Below, piece by piece: positions 2,684-42,226 of a stretch of DNA of 42,315 nucleotides (positions are counted from its first letter, which is position 1; the number at the start of each line of letters is the position of its first letter). Source of the stretch: Candidatus Zixiibacteriota bacterium (GTDB taxonomy: Bacteria; Zixibacteria; MSB-5A5; UBA10806); the NCBI GenBank assembly GCA_020344055.1, contig CP070813.1:1280027-1322341 (forward strand). The letters are read 5' to 3'. The notes below the pieces were generated by a model. It saw only the letters and a program-made list of their open reading frames with translations, did not search any database and had not been told where the DNA came from. Both the position numbers and the translations under genes were made by a program.

Positions 2684-3427
2684 ATGATAAAACAGGAAAG
2701 ATTATATAAGGATATGGCCTGGATCTGGCCTACCATGAGCCCGCCGGAGGAATATATCGAGGAAGCCGAATTCCTTACAGGATTGATCAAATCCTATATG
2801 AGCTATTCTCCCAAAACCATGCTTCACCTGGGCTGCGGAGGTGGCCATATAGATATGACGCTTAAGAAGCATTTCGAGATTACGGGAGTGGACATAAGCA
2901 AATATATGCTGGATCTCGCGAAAAAACTCAATCCCGAAAATAGCTATATTCGCGGAGACATGCGGGATATAAGATTAGAGGAAAAATTCGACGTCGTTTT
3001 GCTTTATGACGGGATCAACTACATGGCGAGTGAAAACGATTTGAAAGCCGCTTTTGAAACGGCTCACGCGAATCTGAAAGACGGCGGTATTGTATTGACC
3101 GTTGTCGAGGAAACTCCGAGTTCATTCCAGCAAAACAAAACTCATGTACGGCATCGAACCGGAGACAATATCGAGCTTACCTATATAGAACACTGGTACG
3201 ATCCCGATCCGGATGACTCCACATATGAAACCGCATTTGTATATCTGATAAGGAAAGATAAGAAGCTGACGGCGGAGTTCGATCTGCATATCTGCGGCAT
3301 ATTCGAGGTGGAGGTGTGGGAGAGACTGTTGAAGGAGGTCGGATTTACATCGAAACAGGATACATTCAGACATTCCACATTCGCGCCCGGCGAAGAATAT
3401 CCGATTCTGATAGGGTTTAAAGAATAA
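2684..3427 (+). CDS. Class I SAM-dependent methyltransferase
   Basis: A 247-residue protein with a Rossmann methyltransferase core: motif I LHLGCGGGHID (about 44-54), motif II acidic end VDISKYML (about 68-75), motif III-like RGDMRDIRL, and the motif IV region FDVVLLYDGINYM, where family members position the substrate. After the core there is an inserted beta-rich region (about 145-205) with a WYDPDPDD turn, typical of small-molecule methyltransferases of this type. The substrate cannot be predicted. The start is supported by GGAGA just upstream. It lies between the M19 dipeptidase and the flavin reductase in an apparent operon. Two other methyltransferases of the same broad family occur at 18021 and 18962. 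Confidence 0.88.
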   Translation: MIKQERLYKDMAWIWPTMSPPEEYIEEAEFLTGLIKSYMSYSPKTMLHLGCGGGHIDMTLKKHFEITGVDISKYMLDLAKKLNPENSYIRGDMRDIRLEEKFDVVLLYDGINYMASENDLKAAFETAHANLKDGGIVLTVVEETPSSFQQNKTHVRHRTGDNIELTYIEHWYDPDPDDSTYETAFVYLIRKDKKLTAEFDLHICGIFEVEVWERLLKEVGFTSKQDTFRHSTFAPGEEYPILIGFKE

Positions 3428-32633: not shown

Positions 32634-33205
32634 GTTTCCTCGCGCCGCAAATACCGCGGATGGAAGAGTTATACGGCCGCCCCGATGAGGCCGCCTTCGT
32701 TCAGCCGGTGACTCCCGATGAATATGAACGCATATCCCGGAGCATGAAAAACGGCCGCGCCCACGATATTACCCTGTATATAAAAAAAGAGAGTGGTTAT
32801 ATCTTCATCGCCAAGCATTTCTATCCGCCGGGATTATACAGGGCTCCATCAGGCGCCGCGAAACCGGGCGAGGACTTTCAGGATGGCGCCCGCAGGGAAG
32901 CCCGGGAGGAAACCGGCGTCGATATCGAGCTCGTCAGATATATCATGAGAATCAATGTGAGGTTCGAAAATGAAGCCATCCATATCGACTGGACCTCGCA
33001 TATATTCCTGGCCGATTATATCAAGGGCGATATCGAACCGCGCGACAAGCGGGAGATCAAAGAAGCCCGATTGATATACCCCGGTGAAATGCCCGGGTTC
33101 GCGAAAAAAATGAGGGAAACGAAAGTAGGCGGTTTAAATTATCGGGCTTTTCTCACTGAAGAGGTGGGGAAGAGATTAAAGCACGATAAATTTCCTAAAA
33201 CCTGA
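32630..33205 (+). CDS. Nudix hydrolase
   Basis: A 191-residue pyrophosphohydrolase with a perfect Nudix box over residues 75-97 (GX5EX7REUXEEXGU; seen as GAAKPGE, then REAREETGV), preceded by strands ITLYIKKESGYIFIAKHFYP. Such enzymes cleave nucleoside diphosphates linked to another moiety, and the flanking residues do not fix the substrate. The N-terminal extension (about 1-45) is unusual and may be a specificity or dimer element. Start TTG at 32630 overlaps the ABC exporter stop (TTGA) and has CTGGAGA five bases upstream; an ATG-started longer frame from 32546 would be buried in the exporter gene. The end overlaps the convergent Cys-rich gene by 11 bases. Confidence 0.88.
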   Translation: MSFLAPQIPRMEELYGRPDEAAFVQPVTPDEYERISRSMKNGRAHDITLYIKKESGYIFIAKHFYPPGLYRAPSGAAKPGEDFQDGARREAREETGVDIELVRYIMRINVRFENEAIHIDWTSHIFLADYIKGDIEPRDKREIKEARLIYPGEMPGFAKKMRETKVGGLNYRAFLTEEVGKRLKHDKFPKT

Positions 33206-34076
33206 TCCTCTTCTTTTCAGACTCTATGATCTCTTCTATCCTGACAGGGCAGTTATCCGAATCCGATATCCCCCTCAAGCAATAAAACCGCCTGTAATGA
33301 GAGATCTCTTTTCTGGAGCGATCCTCGATATCGATGAGCGAGCAATAAGCGCAGTCTTTACATTTCTCGATCGATCCCGCGATTATCTTTCCCGTCGCCC
33401 GAGCTACCTGGGCGCGGGATATATTTATACATTCTTTGCCGCCGTTTTTCTTGGTCTCTAACTTTCTGGGGTTTTTCAATATTATCCGGCCTCGATCCTC
33501 GGTAAATATGGCGTCGAATTCCATATCGTCGCCCGGCGCCGCCTCGGTGCGGCACAAAAACCTTCCGTTCACTCTCAGGTAAATCCTGTCGTCGAATAAA
33601 TCGTTATCGAAATACCCCTTGTCGAATGACACGTAGAAACCGTCCATATGAACCCGGCTCCGCCCGTTTTCGATAGTCATCTTTAAATGAGGCAGCACGG
33701 AAGCGACAGTTCCGCCGAAGCGGACGTTTTTCCCCCGCATGCTGTCAAGCCAGCCCCGGTATTCCAGAAGATCGTCCATAAATCTCTTCAGCGATTTATC
33801 GTCCAGGCCGGTTTCAGGCCGGTATGTCATCTTCTCATCGTAGAATTTCTTGCAGGAGAAACATCCCCTGCCTACGTGTTTGAAATCCTTGGGGCATTTT
33901 TTCCCTTTATCCAGGTCGTGACATTTCCAGAGGAACTCCACGCAGCCCTGGGGAAAACAGCGCTTCTCTACGATTACATGATACGGTGAAACATCATACC
34001 CGAACTGCCTGTGGGCGGGGTAACTACACCTGAAAAGCCCCTTTTGCTTGAGGAGGTTATTAATTTTATTCGGCAT
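33195..34076 (-). CDS. Cysteine-rich protein of unknown family (possible metal or Fe-S binding)
   Basis: A 293-residue protein with 14 cysteines in two groups. N-terminal group: Cys17, 40, 45, 52, 61, 72, 75 with several His (His22, 33, 53). C-terminal group: CKDCAYC (Cys239, 242, 245) plus Cys266 and Cys276, a spacing that could hold a 4Fe-4S cluster or zinc. Between them (about 115-205) lies a beta-rich segment with VRFGGTVASVLPHLKM and DDRIYLRVNGRFL that looks OB-fold-like, hinting at nucleic acid or ligand binding. I do not recognise the family. No signal peptide, so cytoplasmic. The ATG at 34076 has no Shine-Dalgarno and lies eight bases after a -10 box, suggesting leaderless expression. 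It converges on the Nudix gene with an 11-base overlap. Confidence 0.85.
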   Translation of the reverse strand: MPNKINNLLKQKGLFRCSYPAHRQFGYDVSPYHVIVEKRCFPQGCVEFLWKCHDLDKGKKCPKDFKHVGRGCFSCKKFYDEKMTYRPETGLDDKSLKRFMDDLLEYRGWLDSMRGKNVRFGGTVASVLPHLKMTIENGRSRVHMDGFYVSFDKGYFDNDLFDDRIYLRVNGRFLCRTEAAPGDDMEFDAIFTEDRGRIILKNPRKLETKKNGGKECINISRAQVARATGKIIAGSIEKCKDCAYCSLIDIEDRSRKEISHYRRFYCLRGISDSDNCPVRIEEIIESEKKRIRF

Positions 34077-34313: not shown

Positions 34314-35570
34314 ATGGCAGTCAAGGCTTTAAAGTTCCTTGTTTTAACAGGTGTAATGGCGGCGGTTATCTACTCGCCCTGCATTGCCCAGTGGGATTTA
34401 TATTACCAGGGTTCACTGGTAACGGCCGGCCAACCGCACGATCTGGTCGTCTCCGGCAACTATGTATTCCTGGGCGATTGGACCGCCGGTTTCACGGTCA
34501 TAAATATCGCCAATCGCTACTTCCCGCTACAGGCATATAATTACGATACCCCGGGCCTGGCCAATTCCGTTTTTCTGCATGGCACCCTTGCGCTTGTTGC
34601 CGACTGGAGCCAGGGAGTGGCGATTTTCGATATCTCCAATCCCGCCTCACCTGCCTATCTGTCCACCTGGAATACCCCCGGCGCGGCGTATTACGTTTAT
34701 GCTAAGGATACCTGCGCCTATATAGCTGATTTTAACGGCGATCTGGCCGTAATTGATATTTCCGACCCGACCGATCCCCAATACATAACTACACTTCAAC
34801 TTCCCGGCCTTGCCACCGGCGTCTGCGGATCGGGTAATTACCTCTACGCCGTCTCCTATCCGCAGGGGATCGAGACCTACGATATATCCGATCCCTCATC
34901 TCCCGTTCACGTGGATTCATACGTTTCTCCGGGCTCGGCTATCAACATAAGCGTATCGGATACCCTGCTGTTTCTATGCGAGGCCGATGAGGGCGTAACG
35001 ATTTTATCCATAAATGACCCCTCGGATCCATTGATGTTGTCATACGTAGATACGCCCTTTTACGCCAACGACGCCACGGTGGCCGATACGATCCTGTATG
35101 TGGCGGACGATTCTGCCGGCGTTATAGCGTATTCCGTCAGAAATCCCCTGATTCCTTTTGAACTTACCAGCTACGATAGCCCCGGGGCCGCCAAAGGAGT
35201 GTTCGCCTCGGATACAACCGTTTTTCTCGGCGACAACAGCTCCTTTATTATTCTGGTCCATACCGATACTCCCAGCGGAATAGAGGAGAAGGAAATAGGC
35301 GCTCCCGCGGCCTTCTGGATCCAATCGATTTATCCGAATCCGTTCAATCCCGAGGCTACCATCAGGTTTAATCTGGAGAAAACGGCGGAGATCTCCCTGG
35401 ACGTTTACGATATCGGCGGTCGCCTGGTGGAAAACCTTTTGAAGCAGACTCTCGGTCCCGGAACATTCGAGGTTTCCTGGGACGGTGGAAACCATCCCTC
35501 CGGAATATACCTGATCAGGCTTGCGGGAGGCGGTTATGGCATTGTCAGAAAAGCCACTCTTCTTAAATAA
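34314..35570 (+). CDS. LVIVD-repeat beta-propeller with T9SS type A sorting domain
   Basis: A 418-residue secreted protein. Signal peptide to about residue 27 (VMAAVIYSPCIAQ). Residues about 40-320 are six to seven repeats of about 42 residues of the LVIVD type, each with a core like VAIFDISNPASP, VIDISDPTDP and TYDISDPSSP, forming a predicted beta-propeller. Residues about 335-418 form a T9SS type A C-terminal sorting domain: SIYPNPFNPEATIRFNLEK, LDVYDIGGRLV, PSGIYLIRL, ending ATLLK. The CTD directs export by the type IX system and attachment to the surface. No enzyme motif is seen, so a binding or structural role is likely. GCGGAG lies nine bases before the ATG. The following 298 bases are non-coding. 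Confidence 0.93.
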   Translation: MAVKALKFLVLTGVMAAVIYSPCIAQWDLYYQGSLVTAGQPHDLVVSGNYVFLGDWTAGFTVINIANRYFPLQAYNYDTPGLANSVFLHGTLALVADWSQGVAIFDISNPASPAYLSTWNTPGAAYYVYAKDTCAYIADFNGDLAVIDISDPTDPQYITTLQLPGLATGVCGSGNYLYAVSYPQGIETYDISDPSSPVHVDSYVSPGSAINISVSDTLLFLCEADEGVTILSINDPSDPLMLSYVDTPFYANDATVADTILYVADDSAGVIAYSVRNPLIPFELTSYDSPGAAKGVFASDTTVFLGDNSSFIILVHTDTPSGIEEKEIGAPAAFWIQSIYPNPFNPEATIRFNLEKTAEISLDVYDIGGRLVENLLKQTLGPGTFEVSWDGGNHPSGIYLIRLAGGGYGIVRKATLLK

Positions 35571-35868: not shown

Positions 35869-37038
35869 ATGCAAAAAAGATATGTCAGGATTGCCAACGC
35901 CCTTCTGGATCTGGAACCGTTTGATTCTGAAAGATCGGAATTTTATGACGGAGGCATCGACCCATCAGCCCTGCGGTTGAATAATAATGAATCGATGATG
36001 GCCCCTTCGCCCGGAGTATTATCGGCCATAAAAAACCTGCTGGAAAGGGAATCGCTGAACAGGTTTCCCGATCCCCGTGCCGTCCGGCTGAAAAATAAAA
36101 TCGCGGAATATTGCGGAATGCCGGCTGAGTATATCGGATGTTATCCCGGGGCGGGAATATCTCTGGAAAATATCCTGAAGACTTTCCTTGAGCCCGGAAC
36201 CGAAATGTTGACCGCCGGGGCCGTTCCTGCGGATAAACTAATCGCCGCCAGAACCGCGGGATCGACCGTCGTAGAAACTGATTATGATAATCCCTTCTCA
36301 CCCTCGCTGGAACCGGTTATCAATAATATCGGGAAACGGACCCGGGTTCTCTACCTGGGCAATCCCTCCGAATATATAGGGTCATTTTTTACTGAGGCCG
36401 AACTGGTTTTCCTCCTGGCATACGCTGAGAATACCATGATAGTCGTGGACGAATCGTATTTCGAGTTCAGCGGTTTCACGGCTGCCGACCTTGTCAGGAA
36501 ATTCCCTAATTTGACCATTATCAGATCGTTATCTCACGCTTTCGGGCTGGCCGCGATGAATGTCAGCTACGTCATCACCGACCCTGAGAATCTGGTCTAT
36601 ATGAATAGACTTAGCGCAGGATACGCTATCGACGCTGTTTCACAGGTTGCGGCCGAGGCGGCTCTGGATGATCCGGATTATATGCGAAGGTATGTCAGTA
36701 CGGTCAACCGCTCGAAAGATCTGATTTCCGCCAACCTGCCCGAAACCGGGTATGATTTCTATATTTCGCCGGCCAACTTTTTCGTGCTTCGCGTTTCAGA
36801 TCCCGAATCGGCATACGATTATTTGAAAAATAACGGCGTTTTGGTAAAAGACCTGTCCGGAATCAATCGGCTGGAGGGCCTTATCAGGATTACCGTCGGC
36901 ATCCCCGAACAGACGGACCGTCTCCTTCTGCTTCTGGGCAGGGCGGCCGAGAGATTCGCCACCGGATTCAATCGTAGCAGGATAGCGAGACTCTCAAACG
37001 TCGAGGAGAAAAATTCGGTAAAGAGCGGTTTGAAATGA
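35869..37038 (+). CDS. HisC-like aminotransferase homologue lacking the PLP lysine
   Basis: A 389-residue fold-type-I protein closest in pattern to histidinol-phosphate aminotransferase: LRLNNNESMMAPSPGV (N-terminal arm), ENTMIVVDESYFEF with the PLP-ring Asp194, and the C-terminal LIRITVGIPEQTDRLL. The active-site lysine of the RTFSKAFGLAGxRxGY motif is replaced: here the stretch reads RSLSHAFGLAAMNVSY with His223 where Lys belongs and Asn231 for the conserved Arg. The NPNNPTG motif is also changed, to NPSEYIG (165-171), losing the Asn that contacts PLP O3'. It therefore cannot transaminate normally. ColD, a sugar 3-dehydratase, is a known PLP enzyme with His for Lys, so an unusual reaction is possible; a binding or structural role is equally likely. 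The stop overlaps the next start (ATGA). Confidence 0.85.
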   Translation: MQKRYVRIANALLDLEPFDSERSEFYDGGIDPSALRLNNNESMMAPSPGVLSAIKNLLERESLNRFPDPRAVRLKNKIAEYCGMPAEYIGCYPGAGISLENILKTFLEPGTEMLTAGAVPADKLIAARTAGSTVVETDYDNPFSPSLEPVINNIGKRTRVLYLGNPSEYIGSFFTEAELVFLLAYAENTMIVVDESYFEFSGFTAADLVRKFPNLTIIRSLSHAFGLAAMNVSYVITDPENLVYMNRLSAGYAIDAVSQVAAEAALDDPDYMRRYVSTVNRSKDLISANLPETGYDFYISPANFFVLRVSDPESAYDYLKNNGVLVKDLSGINRLEGLIRITVGIPEQTDRLLLLLGRAAERFATGFNRSRIARLSNVEEKNSVKSGLK

Positions 37039-38423
37039 TTGTCGATGAGATAAAAAGCATACATAATTTCGTCAGGTCCCGTAACGGCGCCAACGGCAAT
37101 CCGGCGCGGAAAATCGTCTTCGCCGTTAAAAATATCCGGCATTTCCAGAACGCTTTGAGATTTTTAAGAGAATCCCAATGGCGTTCGATTGAATGGCATG
37201 AAAATTATCAACGGGAGAAGCTCCAGAAGCTTATAAAGTTCTCATCAGAAAAGGTGCCTTTTTACAGGGATCTTATGGGCAAATATAGGATCGATAACGG
37301 AAAATCCAGACCCGTCGAATATCTGAAAGATTTCCCTATAATAAAAGAGGCCGACCTGAGATCCCATTCCAACCTGTTCATATCCGATCGTGTTGGAAAT
37401 GATGACTATATTTATATGGCCTTGAGTAGAAAATACAGCGATAAATTTTATCTGCCCGTGGACGCGGAAACGTTCATAGGAGATAAGGCCTTGATAGCCC
37501 GGCACTATGAGAACGCTGGTTACCGGATAGGTTCCCCGGTTCTTTGCTTCGTAAACGAGATTGACGGATGCCGGGGTAAGGAATTCCGGTTCGACAGAGC
37601 CCGCAACAGATATTATTTTTCGTCGAGCAATCTTAAAAGAAAAAACCTCCCTGATTATTGCAGGAAAATTAAGGAGCCGAATGCCGGTTTCATATTCGGC
37701 TATCCCGGTTCATTGGAAACCTTTGCCGATTACGTTCTGGAGTGGGAGATAGGCTTAAGGTTCCAGGGAGTAATAACAAGCGGCGAAATCCTTACCGATA
37801 TCGTGCGAACGAAAATCGAGAGCGCTTTTCATGCCAAGGTTTACGATCTTTATCATTATTCGTTTCCTATTCTCGGGATGGGTCAATGTCACTATTGCGA
37901 AGGTTATCATCTGTTCTCGGAATATTGCATTCTCGAGCTGGTCGATTTCAACGGAAATCAGGTCAAAGAAAAAGGGGAGGTGGGCAGACTCGTGGCCACT
38001 AATATTTCCAACCGCGCGCTGCCCTTAATCCGCTTCGACACCGGCGATTTTGGAGTGTACGATGGAAGCGGATGCGATTGTGGTAGGGGATTGCCGAAAA
38101 TCGTCAGGAAAATAGCGGGCTCGCACAGGGAAATGCTGATAACCGCCGACGGCAGCTATCTTCCTCCGGGGCCTTTGCGAGCGGTCTTGAGCCAGGCCGG
38201 TTTCTCGACTACAGGTTATCAATTGGTTCAGGAAAAAAGGCATAAATTCAAGCTGAAACTTATACGCGGACCGGAATATAGGCCCGACAGTCTTGAGAGG
38301 ATAAAAGGCGATCTACAGGAAAGGCTGGGCGAAAGTTCCGATATATCCATTGAATCAGTAAATCTAATAAGCGGGGATGGAAGAAAAACCAGATCGATAA
38401 TGAGGGAATATGAACCGGAATAA
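37035..38423 (+). CDS. PaaK/CapK-like adenylate-forming enzyme homologue with lost ATP loop
   Basis: A 462-residue protein with the layout of phenylacetate-CoA ligase and CapK-like (coenzyme F390 synthetase-like) proteins: LQKLIKFSSEKVPFYRDLM, DFPIIKEADLRSH, ITSGEILT, RFDTGDFG (Asp335 and Asp338 region) and a C-terminal lysine segment. The phosphate-binding TSGSTG(x)P loop is missing: the aligned segment is ALSRKYSDKFYLPVD (129-143), without glycines. The later YGSxE motif is DLYHYSF (271-277). Both ATP-site motifs are thus degenerate, so normal adenylation is doubtful. Cys-rich patches (MGQCHYCEGYH, GSGCDCGRG) may bind metal, as CapK-like proteins sometimes carry. The start overlaps the aminotransferase stop (ATGA) and the next gene starts 14 bases before its stop. 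Confidence 0.85.
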   Translation: MIVDEIKSIHNFVRSRNGANGNPARKIVFAVKNIRHFQNALRFLRESQWRSIEWHENYQREKLQKLIKFSSEKVPFYRDLMGKYRIDNGKSRPVEYLKDFPIIKEADLRSHSNLFISDRVGNDDYIYMALSRKYSDKFYLPVDAETFIGDKALIARHYENAGYRIGSPVLCFVNEIDGCRGKEFRFDRARNRYYFSSSNLKRKNLPDYCRKIKEPNAGFIFGYPGSLETFADYVLEWEIGLRFQGVITSGEILTDIVRTKIESAFHAKVYDLYHYSFPILGMGQCHYCEGYHLFSEYCILELVDFNGNQVKEKGEVGRLVATNISNRALPLIRFDTGDFGVYDGSGCDCGRGLPKIVRKIAGSHREMLITADGSYLPPGPLRAVLSQAGFSTTGYQLVQEKRHKFKLKLIRGPEYRPDSLERIKGDLQERLGESSDISIESVNLISGDGRKTRSIMREYEPE

Positions 38424-39624
38424 CGATAAATCGGGATTGAGCCGTATGACCATCGGGATCAGCGTCTTAAATGTGCAAACCGGAAGCGATTATGGATACA
38501 TTAACAGGCTGATAGAATGTCTCGGCGATCCGGCGGTCGACCGGACTTTTATTTTGATCGGACGCGAAGAACAAAAAGGCCATTTTATCGCCGCGCCGGC
38601 GAATTTCAGCTACAGATTTTACAAACTGCACGGTCCGGTTTCGGAATCATCCGGTCCCCGGATTGATAAACTGTTCAATGAGGTTATTGCCGACTTCGGC
38701 TGCGATTTACTCCTGGAATTCGGCCTGGGCGGGGTTTCCAGCGTTTCCTTGCCCCGGGTCTCGATGATAAACAATTTTAAAATGGTCGGAACCTTCAGTA
38801 ACAGCGGCAAACCGTCGGTTTCGCGGAGAAAATTGACGCTGATAAATAAATCCAACGTAAATAACATCAAAAACGCCCGTGGTATCATATTCTCCAATCC
38901 TTATCTTCAACATGAAATATCCAGAATCATACCGCTGGAGCGTCTTAAGACAACATCGATATATTTGGGGATGCCCGGTCCGGATGAGGAATCCAGCCAT
39001 AAGGCAATTGCCCGATACGGGATCGGTAGCAGGCATATTGTTTCCATCGTATCCTCAGAAGGAATGAAAGAGTCTTTGAGAATGCTTAAAGCGTACTGCC
39101 GCGCGTTTGAAAAGGACTCCGAGGCCCCTGACCTCGTACTGGTGGGCACTAATGAAAATCCCCGGGATGTAGGTTTGATACTGGATAAGATTAATAAGTC
39201 GGCGCTTCAGTCGAAAATTAAATATATCGGCACAATCCCCGACGAGGATTTTTCGGCTCTTCTCCATAAAGCACATTTCCTGGTGATTCCGTCTGAAATT
39301 TTCAATAACGCCGATACGCTGGTTACCGCTATGAACTGCGGTTGCGCCATCCTTTGCGCCAATAAAAATGCCAATCAAGAGATAACGGGTGGCGCGGCGT
39401 TGTATTTTGATCCCGACCACCGGCCGGACCTGACTTATAAACTGAAATTGACGGCCGATGATAAGAGTTTGCTGGACTTTTTGCGAAGGCAATCTACGTC
39501 AAGAGCTCGTCTTTTCACCAAAGGGCAGATCGCCGGCAGGCTTCTGGGCTTTTTCGACGATGTTATCTGTGACTCTAAAGACTCTGCCGCTGTGAAAACT
39601 CCTCAAAATACCGTTGCCCCGTAA
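38410..39624 (+). CDS. GT4-like glycosyltransferase homologue lacking the EX7E glutamates
   Basis: A 404-residue GT-B-fold protein. The N-terminal half resembles glycosyltransferase family 4 acceptor domains (TGSDYGYINRLIECL, NARGIIFSNPYLQHEI). The C-terminal half has IVSIVSSEGMKESLRMLKAY, VLVGTNENP, KIKYIGTIPDEDFSALLHKA and the donor-site motif region PSEIFNNADTLVTAMNCGCAIL (about 294-315, quoted for position). In GT4 enzymes this reads EGFGLPVLEAMACG with two glutamates eight residues apart; here the equivalents are Phe298 and Thr306, so the EX7E catalytic pair is absent. Lys of GMKES may keep a donor-phosphate contact. Either an inactive or an altered enzyme. The ATG at 38410 has GAGGGAA upstream inside the previous gene, and the two genes overlap by 14 bases. 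Confidence 0.82.
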   Translation: MNRNNDKSGLSRMTIGISVLNVQTGSDYGYINRLIECLGDPAVDRTFILIGREEQKGHFIAAPANFSYRFYKLHGPVSESSGPRIDKLFNEVIADFGCDLLLEFGLGGVSSVSLPRVSMINNFKMVGTFSNSGKPSVSRRKLTLINKSNVNNIKNARGIIFSNPYLQHEISRIIPLERLKTTSIYLGMPGPDEESSHKAIARYGIGSRHIVSIVSSEGMKESLRMLKAYCRAFEKDSEAPDLVLVGTNENPRDVGLILDKINKSALQSKIKYIGTIPDEDFSALLHKAHFLVIPSEIFNNADTLVTAMNCGCAILCANKNANQEITGGAALYFDPDHRPDLTYKLKLTADDKSLLDFLRRQSTSRARLFTKGQIAGRLLGFFDDVICDSKDSAAVKTPQNTVAP

Positions 39625-39876
39625 GATAAATCCGGATAACGAAATATGACGTAAACCCATTTCGGTGTGGTATCGCCCATTTTACGCCGCAAAAAACCGT
39701 TGCAGTTTGAAACAGTTGTATGAAATTATTTTTATCTCCGGGTAAATTGCCGCCGCAATAAAAATCTTTTAAGGCGCCGGCCATACGGTCGAGATTCCAT
39801 GAATCATAAATTCAGAACAGGGGCATAATATGCCGAATAGTGAATATAGAACCGATTTTCGGGAGGTCGAAGAGCC

Positions 39877-40581
39877 ATGGATAAGTGTGAGGAAACAGCC
39901 ATTCTGGAAAGAAGCAAGACGCGCCCGGCGGAGTTTAGCGGCGTCAATAAGAAAGACCGCTTTTCAAAATATAATGTGCCTGTTATTATAATAGAATCCT
40001 CTCTGGTGGGATGTTCGCTCTTCCTGGCGTTTCTGGTACGGCAGATACATTTCACCGCTGATGGCCGCCAATTTTTGGTCGGGCCGGGTGAAATTTTCCG
40101 CATGAGCCTGGGAATAGCTTTCTGCTACGCGTTTATTTGCGTCTTGAGACGGGAGTACCGATGGGGATTGAATTCTCCCGCAAAAGAGACCGCGAAACGG
40201 ATGGGTCAATATATTGTCGAGACTCATGTGTTATATCTGGCGTTGCTTTTTCTCGCAAATGACGTCAATTTCACATCTACCAAGTTGGCGATCGGGATGA
40301 GTGCCCTAACAAGCGCAGTTCTTTTATTCTCCTGCAGATTCGCATATAGGTCTGTCCGAACCCGGGAGAAATCGCCGTCGGAGCACCGCAAAATCACCCT
40401 GAAAAAGCCGCCTTATTCGTACGAATTGGAGACTTCATCCCCGGCCGGTGAGAACGCAGAAACGCGAAGAAACGCTTTTCCCAGGGAACATTCGAAGGTT
40501 GGTAAGTCGATAAATGGCAGTCTCACCGAGGATCCGGGGGAAAATCAATACCGTCCCGGCCGGCACGCTCCTGAGAATTGA
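39877..40581 (+). CDS. WbaP-like membrane anchor without the sugar-transferase domain
   Basis: A 234-residue protein with four predicted membrane helices (about 33-56, 70-90, 112-132, 140-160) and the motif RREYRWGL before the third, then a hydrophilic tail (about 165-234) rich in Arg, Glu, Pro and Ser. The helix pattern, the YRWG motif and RFAYRSVR at the end match the N-terminal membrane module of polyprenyl glycosylphosphotransferases of the WbaP/EpsE type. The CoA-binding-like and catalytic sugar-transferase domains, which normally add about 250 residues, are missing, and only 199 non-coding bases separate this gene from the next, so there is no room for them. It is a truncated or free-standing membrane module. 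Start at 39877 follows GGAGG at about ten bases. Confidence 0.7.
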   Translation: MDKCEETAILERSKTRPAEFSGVNKKDRFSKYNVPVIIIESSLVGCSLFLAFLVRQIHFTADGRQFLVGPGEIFRMSLGIAFCYAFICVLRREYRWGLNSPAKETAKRMGQYIVETHVLYLALLFLANDVNFTSTKLAIGMSALTSAVLLFSCRFAYRSVRTREKSPSEHRKITLKKPPYSYELETSSPAGENAETRRNAFPREHSKVGKSINGSLTEDPGENQYRPGRHAPEN

Positions 40582-40780: not shown

Positions 40781-42226
40781 ATGAAAAAATTGTTGATCGC
40801 GGTCTTGACGGTACAGTTTTTGTTCGCGGCGGCATACTCCGCCGACTTTTTGACCAGCGCCAGGGGCGGAGGAATCGGTTTCTCGTTCTTCGTTCTGGGA
40901 GACGATCCATCCGGCGCACTCTATAATCCGGCTTCGCTGGGATTTATAAACGGCTGGCAATCCCAGTTCATGTACAACAAGAGAAACAATTACGGCTATG
41001 CGCAGTGGGACGAGAATCCCTACTACGGCCTTTTCGGGGCGGTTTATAATCAGCCGGAATGGGGAACCTTTGCGCTAAACAGCGTGCAGAGCGGGTCTTT
41101 GCTGGATAATACCGATATCCCCACCGTCAACTATTTCACCTTATCGTTCGGGCGCGAATTCTGGCCGGGACTGGCCATGGGAACATCGATTAAGTACATG
41201 GATGAATACGGCTTTCTGGAGAGATCGGCCTTCGACTTCGATTTCGGGGTAACATACCGCACCACCGAAAACATAATCCTGGCGGCGTCGGCTGAAAACA
41301 TCGCCAGGTCGAAACTGACCCCGGTTTACCTCGGAATCGCCGAACGTCTCCCGCGCCGCAGCCGGGCGGGCGGCGCCTATATCCTTGAAACGGACGAGTT
41401 TCAGGCCGCCTTTCTTCTGGCATCCCAGATCCAGGAATGGGGCATTCTGGAAAAACATACGACCTTCCTCGCCAATTTCGGGACCGAATGGTGGTTCAAT
41501 CGCTTCGGTAAAATCGCTTTCGCCGCGCGGGGCGGCTATACCATCGGAAAAGGGGTCTTAAACGACCTGAAAAGCGATTACAATAGCTTTTCCGGGGGAC
41601 TGTCGGTCAATTACAATCTGGGCTCAAATGATTTGAGGATAGATTACGGCATCGAGACATTCCCCTATGATACCGAGCCGGGCCGCAGCCCCGTAAACCA
41701 TTATTTCTCCCTCAATTTCGGGTGGGGAGGAATCCCGAGCTACAGCAGATACGAAGCCGATGAGGAATATACGGAAAATCCGCCGATCCAGCACGACTAC
41801 CTCTCTACACTGGAACCGAAAACCTACGAACCTCCTCAGACGGACGAAAATGATATTGATCCCGATACCGAATTCGACATTAAAAAGTTCGAGCGCTACA
41901 AGGTGGAAATGGATGTCGCGGATATTTCAAGCATGGATTATAAACGCGTAGTCTTCTATCTTCGCCCTCAGACCATAATAAACACTAACTCATGGAAGCT
42001 GTATGTGTTTAAGGCGAAAATCAAGAAATGGAGCGAGGTGGAAATAGACCGCTGGGCCCTGAAAGTTATCGAGGGGAAAGGGCTCCCTCCGCTAAACGTG
42101 GTCTGGGACGGGATTTCAAGCGACGGCAGATTGCTGCCTCCTGGGAAATACTATTGCATACTGACAGCGGTCGATCAACAGGGCAGGCATTTCGCCACAC
42201 AGTGGCATAATTTTAATCTGGAATAG
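40781..42226 (+). CDS. PorV/PorQ-like outer-membrane protein with C-terminal FlgD-type domain
   Basis: A 481-residue outer-membrane protein. Signal peptide to about residue 21 (LFAAAYS|AD). Residues 22-320 have the PorV/PorQ pattern of the FadL-like barrel family: DFLTSARGGGIGFSFFVLGDDPSGALYNPA, YGYAQWDENPYYGLFGAVYNQ, GLAMGTSIKYMDEYG. After an acidic linker (about 325-370) comes a FlgD-like Ig domain (about 375-481) ending VVWDGISSDGRLLPPGKYYCILTAVD. PorV in T9SS shuttles cargo from the translocon to the attachment complex; PorQ-type proteins are related. The T9SS-cargo gene at 34314 lies 5 kb upstream, so a T9SS link is possible but other T9SS genes are not here. GGGGGTTTAAG precedes the ATG, and two hairpins end the operon. 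Confidence 0.88.
   Translation: MKKLLIAVLTVQFLFAAAYSADFLTSARGGGIGFSFFVLGDDPSGALYNPASLGFINGWQSQFMYNKRNNYGYAQWDENPYYGLFGAVYNQPEWGTFALNSVQSGSLLDNTDIPTVNYFTLSFGREFWPGLAMGTSIKYMDEYGFLERSAFDFDFGVTYRTTENIILAASAENIARSKLTPVYLGIAERLPRRSRAGGAYILETDEFQAAFLLASQIQEWGILEKHTTFLANFGTEWWFNRFGKIAFAARGGYTIGKGVLNDLKSDYNSFSGGLSVNYNLGSNDLRIDYGIETFPYDTEPGRSPVNHYFSLNFGWGGIPSYSRYEADEEYTENPPIQHDYLSTLEPKTYEPPQTDENDIDPDTEFDIKKFERYKVEMDVADISSMDYKRVVFYLRPQTIINTNSWKLYVFKAKIKKWSEVEIDRWALKVIEGKGLPPLNVVWDGISSDGRLLPPGKYYCILTAVDQQGRHFATQWHNFNLE

Follow-up and report, generated by a model that had tools for sequence, protein, structure and literature searches.

Loss of catalysis within an enzyme fold has described precedents; SPTLC1, the lysine-less subunit of serine palmitoyltransferase, is a known pseudo-enzyme. 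Pseudo-enzymes in general are a known kind of protein (review, PMC10211241). Here, we analyzed a 42,315-nucleotide stretch (the window; G000:C1:1280027-1322341) from the single-contig, 3.83 Mb genome of a Candidatus Zixiibacteriota bacterium, listed as 90.3% complete, in which four consecutive genes encode a HisC-like protein (AT), a PaaK/CapK-like protein (CapK), a GT4-type protein (GT), and a membrane protein (MEM). There is, in our judgement, about an even chance that these four genes are the surviving part of an exopolysaccharide locus, in which AT, CapK, and GT lost the textbook active-site residues of their families, remained under selection, and now form a non-catalytic complex at the inner membrane.

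The AT protein matches the hisC model (TIGR01141) at 3.1e-64 and 217.1 bits, below the curated cut-off of 276.55. The original prediction had described an aminotransferase homolog with His223 in the place of the pyridoxal 5′-phosphate (PLP) lysine, Asn231 in the place of an arginine, and NPSEYIG (residues 165–171) as its counterpart of NPNNPTG, and alignment confirmed all three. The predicted model of AT (mean predicted local distance difference test score, pLDDT, of 82.5) has the expected type I fold, its best PDB matches being HisC structures with a template modelling (TM) score by target length of about 0.83, while residues 1–39 and 369–389 were modelled at pLDDT <50, though the family conserves parts of the N-terminal stretch. 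AT is unlikely to serve as the histidine enzyme of the cell, given a separate HisC scoring over the cut-off (295.5 bits) is encoded at G000:C1:232972, and AT is thus probably dispensable for histidine.

To place these substitutions, we collected an AT family of 45 rows from protein and genome searches, of which 44 are distinct (P0038 duplicates the G005 copy and was counted once), together with eight intact relatives as a comparison. The AT of the same-genus genome G001 encloses P0004, a protein of a Candidatus Zixiibacteriota metagenome-assembled genome (matching record CP070742.1), and the G001 locus represents it here. Residue counts were made outside the fragments P0026, P0027, P0030, P0037, and P0041, and the hits P0049 and P0051–P0059 were unused; a scan of genome contigs gave at least 80 loci, two of them titled Zixiibacteriota and the other 78, only 25–34% identical, left out. 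Six positions were scored (Asn168, Asp194, Tyr197, Lys223, Arg231, and Arg340). All six residues occur together in none of the 44 family rows, compared to seven of the eight intact relatives (the eighth has Ser at 168). Individually, Asn168 is kept in 5 rows, Asp194 in 42, Tyr197 in 31, Lys223 in 10, Arg231, the phosphate-binding arginine, in 8 (gone in 36), and Arg340 in 37, with position 223 being H, N, G, R, Y, or S in the remaining 34 rows. Of the 17 rows in the window's own clade, 14 have His at position 223, two have Tyr, and one has Arg. In the AT tree, the family forms a starred clade (SH-aLRT 99, by a quick method), outside of which G068 and G132 fall, and the distribution of Lys and other residues at 223 needs six changes.

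The altered positions are unevenly placed. Variability at positions 168, 223, and 231 exceeds that of about 73% of columns; Asp194 and Ser222, in contrast, remain conserved. Eleven columns are common to at least seven of the eight intact relatives and retained in no more than half of the family, and eight of these (167, 168, 169, 196, 220, 223, 231, and 233; the change at 220 being a mild Thr-to-Ser) lie in or beside active-site motifs, which we take to be NPNNPTG, DEAY, TFSK, and RxG. Judged from the alignment, the changes in AT appear to cluster at active-site motifs more than chance would give. Conversely, 30 columns are common to at least 85% of the family and found in two or fewer of the eight intact relatives, with 12 of them in residues 176–190 and the N-terminal arm. 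A C-terminal tail of ATGFNRNR, or a close variant, also occurs in most family rows and in none of the eight intact relatives. A lost active site combined with newly fixed positions elsewhere is the pattern that a new non-catalytic role would leave.

In CapK, ALSRKYS stands where the SGSTG loop is expected and YHYSF where YGxxE is expected, as the original prediction had read. Profile matches were to PaaK-type models and all below cut-off, among them NF045666 (1.2e-29, 103 bits vs. a cut-off of 300), and the profile search gave no Pfam match. The predicted model (mean pLDDT of 85.1) adopts the PaaK fold, with PaaK-type ligase structures as best matches at a TM score by target of about 0.69. In none of the 30 close relatives (P0060–P0089) is the SGSTG-type loop complete, and in all of them the YGxxE glutamate is replaced, by F in 19, L in 10, and A in one; a partial STG remains in P0084 and P0085. 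Both motifs are intact in P0090 (39% identical), in four more distant rows, and in all seven genome relatives read. We also noted that rows P0074–P0079 are without the C-terminal domain, in frame, while retaining the last dozen residues, and that P0086, P0088, and P0089 stop at about the same place.

GT just passes the Pfam model Glyco_trans_1_4 (6.7e-7), with its likeness in the C-terminal domain, and matched no solved structure by sequence at E 0.01. Phe298 and Thr306 occupy the places of the two EX7E glutamates, as had been predicted. In the GT clade, the second glutamate is absent in all 11 readable rows and the first in nine of them (P0130 ends before the motif and is unreadable there). 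EX7E is intact in all six genome relatives compared, namely G002, G003, and G096 by alignment and G110, G053, and G034 by tblastn reads; among five distant rows, P0131, P0133, and P0135 carry both glutamates and P0134 and P0136 carry Gln at the second. The outcome that the losses are private to the window, which the original prediction had named as a sign of decay, was therefore not what we found, given the changes extend across the AT, CapK, and GT alignments alike.

Selection was estimated by pairwise codon-model fits of the window against G001, one species pair, with gene models picked automatically. Of 38 frames in the window, 28 had a pair in the G001 stretches used and 10 did not; one pair (2684–3427, matched to a paralog at dS 65) was removed, leaving 23 control genes beside the four genes of interest. 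The ratio of nonsynonymous to synonymous substitution rates (dN/dS, omega) was 0.196 for AT, 0.161 for CapK, 0.256 for GT, and 0.296 for MEM, at dS 0.77–0.99, and omega = 1 was rejected for each (likelihood-ratio statistics of 117, 158, 91, and 41, respectively). The controls had a median omega of 0.113 (range 0.064–0.250), with three reaching the value of AT, six that of CapK, and none that of GT or MEM. All four genes are under purifying selection, weaker than for most of their neighbours. Relaxed selection near 1, the other sign of decay that had been named, was thus not seen, and the proposal of a maintained set held, given G001 carries the same genes side by side with the same kinds of losses. 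Private decay in the window is ruled out by the losses common to G001 and the family alignments and by omega far below 1. On their motif losses and omega of 0.16–0.26, the three enzyme homologs fit the description of putative pseudo-enzymes.

Several observations weigh against a wholly non-catalytic complex. Loss in AT is incomplete, with Asp194, Tyr197, Ser222, and Arg340 still present in the window's protein and Lys223 present in 10 of the family rows, and in CapK, the TGD aspartate (Asp338) is kept in 30/30 rows and the C-terminal tail lysine (Lys451) in 23/30. Both proteins hence retain several residues of the cofactor pocket, and some chemistry could remain. GT and MEM are the least constrained of the 27 genes compared, indicating that part of the set is relaxed; the selection estimate comes from a single genome pair; and the membrane role is inferred only from MEM as a neighbour 252 bases downstream. 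Accordingly, the original claim that all four genes lack their catalytic features stands for the named residues of AT, CapK, and GT, which are gone, though the losses are partial and the claim does not extend to the fourth gene. The claim that losses are confined to active sites is borne out for AT to the extent that eight of the 11 lost columns lie in or beside motifs.

The retained residues invite the explanation that these proteins are still enzymes working by other mechanisms, such as a step dependent on pyridoxamine 5′-phosphate (PMP) with His in place of Lys, or a ligase fold without its phosphate loop. PLP-fold dehydratases with a histidine for the lysine do exist (ColD type), and the near-constant Asp194, the frequent Arg340, and the TGD aspartate and tail lysine of CapK would suit such enzymes. 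Against this, position 223 is variously H, N, G, R, Y, S, or K, with Tyr and Arg found even within the window's own clade, which disfavours a histidine base of the ColD type; the phosphate-binding arginine is mostly gone; and the six CapK rows without a C-terminal domain are ill-suited to a ligase. We consider changed chemistry improbable.

The gene context in relatives points to an exopolysaccharide origin. In the window and G001, the order is LVIVD-AT-CapK-GT-MEM-PorV, whereas in G002, of the same family, it is LVIVD-Wza-AT-CapK-GT-dehydrogenase-WbaP-receiver/MEM-Wzi-PorV (Wza being a Poly_export/SLBB protein, the dehydrogenase a fusion, and Wzi a Wzi-like barrel). The locus of G003 is longer and comprises Wza, a Wzz-like gene, AT, GT, WbaP, MEM, Wzi, and PorV, with CapK not found in the stretches read, and G008 shows the order Wza-AT-WbaP-receiver/MEM-Wzi-PorV. 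In G004, the corresponding genes are spread over separate contigs, and another contig carries an intact CapK beside the start of a GT. AT lies two or fewer genes from Wza in six of nine genomes of the order, the exceptions being G000 (the window's genome), G001, and G006; those six genomes have three Poly_export matches over cut-off and the three exceptions have two. Judged by longest contigs of equal size, AT is paired with CapK five times and with GT three times, and CapK is paired with GT four times, suggesting that the three genes probably lie together in further genomes. In G068 (L097:9332-12862), a HisC-like and a CapK-like gene, both intact, overlap each other next to a PHP-domain gene (Pfam PHP 1.1e-8); this pair is a possible catalytic ancestor of the altered pair. 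A PHP gene likewise precedes an intact HisC-like gene in G132 (L098).

The export machinery compared here consists of Wza, WbaP, and Wzi. These three are missing at the cluster in both the window and G001; no such frame occurs in the window between 34314 and 42226, and tblastn for remnants in the window and L088 gave only hits at E 0.16 or worse. In G000 as a whole, Bac_transf matches fall in frames of 299 and 768 aa only, and no frame near 470 aa has one; in G001, a 467-aa frame located about 107 kb away from the cluster has a match. The Wzi-like genes of both genomes sit elsewhere. AT and CapK are altered already in G002, where the machinery is present and GT intact, indicating that those losses are independent of losing the machinery.

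MEM had been proposed as a WbaP-like module that lost its transferase domain. It gave weak profile matches only (best EPS_sugtrans at 0.0017), with remote similarity to the WbaP N-terminus and no Pfam match, Bac_transf (PF02397) included. Relatives of MEM were found by search in G001–G004 and by position and alignment (17% identity) in G008, and none of the five carries Bac_transf; in G002, G003, G004, and G008, they are separate genes beside a full WbaP. We therefore set aside the reading of MEM as WbaP minus its transferase, the supposed loss being unsupported. A Response_reg (receiver) domain is present in the relatives of G002 and G008 and absent in those of G001, G003, and G004. The proteins at L096:5769-6881 and L089:7788-8726, each a receiver fused to a membrane domain weakly like the N-terminal half of WbaP and lying beside WbaP, present an architecture that is regulator-like and looks unusual for exopolysaccharide loci.

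These absences could instead reflect slow erosion, where the exopolysaccharide was abandoned, the four genes are on their way out, and the remaining constraint marks an incomplete or recent release. The machinery missing at the spot, the omega of GT and MEM above every control, and a MEM without the receiver domain of its G002 and G008 relatives would all suit such a course. However, G003 and G004, where machinery is present, also lack the receiver domain in their MEM relative, AT and CapK were altered in G002 despite the machinery, and both species keep the four frames unbroken at the synonymous divergence and omega given above. Since neither G000 nor G001 has the machinery here, the simplest dating of the constraint between them is to the time after its loss, and we regard erosion as unlikely.

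A further explanation is that the four proteins act in trans, as non-catalytic partners of a second, conserved exopolysaccharide locus elsewhere in the genome. A candidate for such a locus lies at G000:C1:1574750-1580229, where Bac_transf (299-aa frame) and Poly_export (334-aa frame) matches occur about 5 kb apart, and a similar-sized, similarly spaced pair was found in all eight relatives searched. In G002, AT and CapK are altered while Wza, WbaP, and Wzi are all present, which makes a partner role in synthesis plausible. No link between the two loci was found, where only position was looked at, and we judge this helper role quite unlikely.

Under the preferred reading, that of a surviving part of an exopolysaccharide locus turned non-catalytic complex, AT and CapK would, on the simplest order, have been altered first, with the alteration of GT and the loss of the machinery following in either sequence, and Wza, WbaP, and Wzi would have been lost in the window's genus rather than gained by the other genomes. 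AT, CapK, and GT may bind one another or MEM and may hold ligands (PLP or PMP, nucleotide, and sugar nucleotide) without turnover, and the module could, near the PorV-like protein, sense or organise the assembly of surface glycans or the attachment of cargo. More tentatively, and in our view with the chances clearly against it, the locus may represent operon-wide pseudo-enzymes of three unrelated folds that arose by stepwise loss, transaminase and ligase first, and are selected as a purely structural or sensing membrane complex that couples the attachment of surface glycan or type IX cargo by way of the PorV-like neighbour.

The four clean open frames of the original prediction were recovered, and their position between a type IX secretion system (T9SS) cargo gene and a PorV/PorQ-like gene was likewise upheld, with the match of the latter falling below cut-off (Table 1). 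Its claim of coupled starts stands for AT-CapK-GT, with an ATGA overlap at 37035–37038 (not seen again in G001) and a 14-base overlap between CapK and GT (present in G001 too), and fails for MEM, which is uncoupled from the other three by a 252-base gap. GAGG stretches resembling ribosome sites precede AT, GT, and MEM.

Table 1. Genes of the cluster and its flanks, with positions in the window.
Feature	Position	Strand	Basis
LVIVD-repeat flank gene	34314..35570	+	Pfam LVIVD 3.7e-30; Por_Secre_tail 1.7e-9, the T9SS C-terminal sorting domain; synteny
AT, HisC-like putative pseudo-transaminase	35869..37038	+	Lys to His223, Arg to Asn231, NPNNPTG to NPSEYIG; TIGR01141, family alignment and tree, model
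CapK, PaaK/CapK-like putative pseudo-ligase	37035..38423	+	No SGSTG loop or YGxxE glutamate; Asp338 of TGD retained; NF045666, model
GT, GT4-type putative pseudo-glycosyltransferase	38410..39624	+	EX7E glutamates replaced by Phe298 and Thr306; Pfam Glyco_trans_1_4, clade alignment
MEM (gene 4), membrane protein, no receiver domain	39877..40581	+	Kin are membrane proteins, some with a receiver, beside full WbaP in related loci
PorV/PorQ-like outer-membrane protein, flank gene	40781..42226	+	NF033709 3.1e-15, 56.6 bits vs. cut-off 90; end gene of related loci

The cluster is linked to the T9SS only by position. The PorV-like gene is syntenic in G001–G004 and G008, and the LVIVD cargo gene and the PorV-like gene together flank the fuller locus in G002 and G003 as well. 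Upstream, a 293-aa protein (33195–34076, reverse strand) shares 86% identity with its G001 counterpart and is under strong constraint (omega 0.082), with no Pfam match at 1e-4. We also noted that the T9SS sorting-domain family is large in G000, with 276 candidate places and at least 150 matches (150 of the 150 scored).

While single pseudo-enzymes are common, a run of three with unrelated folds, kept under selection at a site without the export and initiation genes, would, if true, represent a pathway turned block-wise into a non-enzymatic module. In listings of the open-licence PubMed Central literature, we found no description of an operon that combines three pseudo-enzymes of unrelated folds and lacks the surrounding pathway. 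The relatives form a graded series, from G068 (AT and CapK intact), through G002 (AT and CapK altered, GT intact, and machinery present), to the window's genus (all three altered and machinery absent at the spot), making the order of loss testable. Our findings also advise caution in annotation: the names histidinol-phosphate aminotransferase, phenylacetate-CoA ligase, and glycosyltransferase, which some sources in the protein searches use, should not be given to these genes.

Compared to known systems, AT resembles HisC (TIGR01141; fold-type I PLP enzymes) in near whole-length similarity and in fold, and differs by its sub-cut-off score, the replaced PLP lysine, phosphate-binding arginine, and NPTG asparagine, and its own ATGFNRNR-type tail. 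CapK shares the fold, the C-terminal half, and the TGD and CxCGRG motifs of the PaaK/CapK adenylate-forming ligases, and differs by the lost loop and glutamate and by reaching no family cut-off. GT is alike to GT4 enzymes (Pfam Glycos_transf_1/Glyco_trans_1_4) in the C-terminal domain and unlike them at EX7E. Among Wza/WbaP/Wzi export loci, that of G002 holds AT, CapK, and GT inside it with the same flanks, and in G003, G004, and G008, AT lies among or next to genes of this type, whereas the window and G001 are missing the export protein, the initiating transferase, and the Wzi-like barrel at this spot. Finally, SPTLC1 is comparable in that it has a PLP fold, lacks the lysine, and is retained as a partner without catalysis of its own, as AT may be; it differs in that here three unrelated folds stand in one operon, with no active partner enzyme seen beside them.

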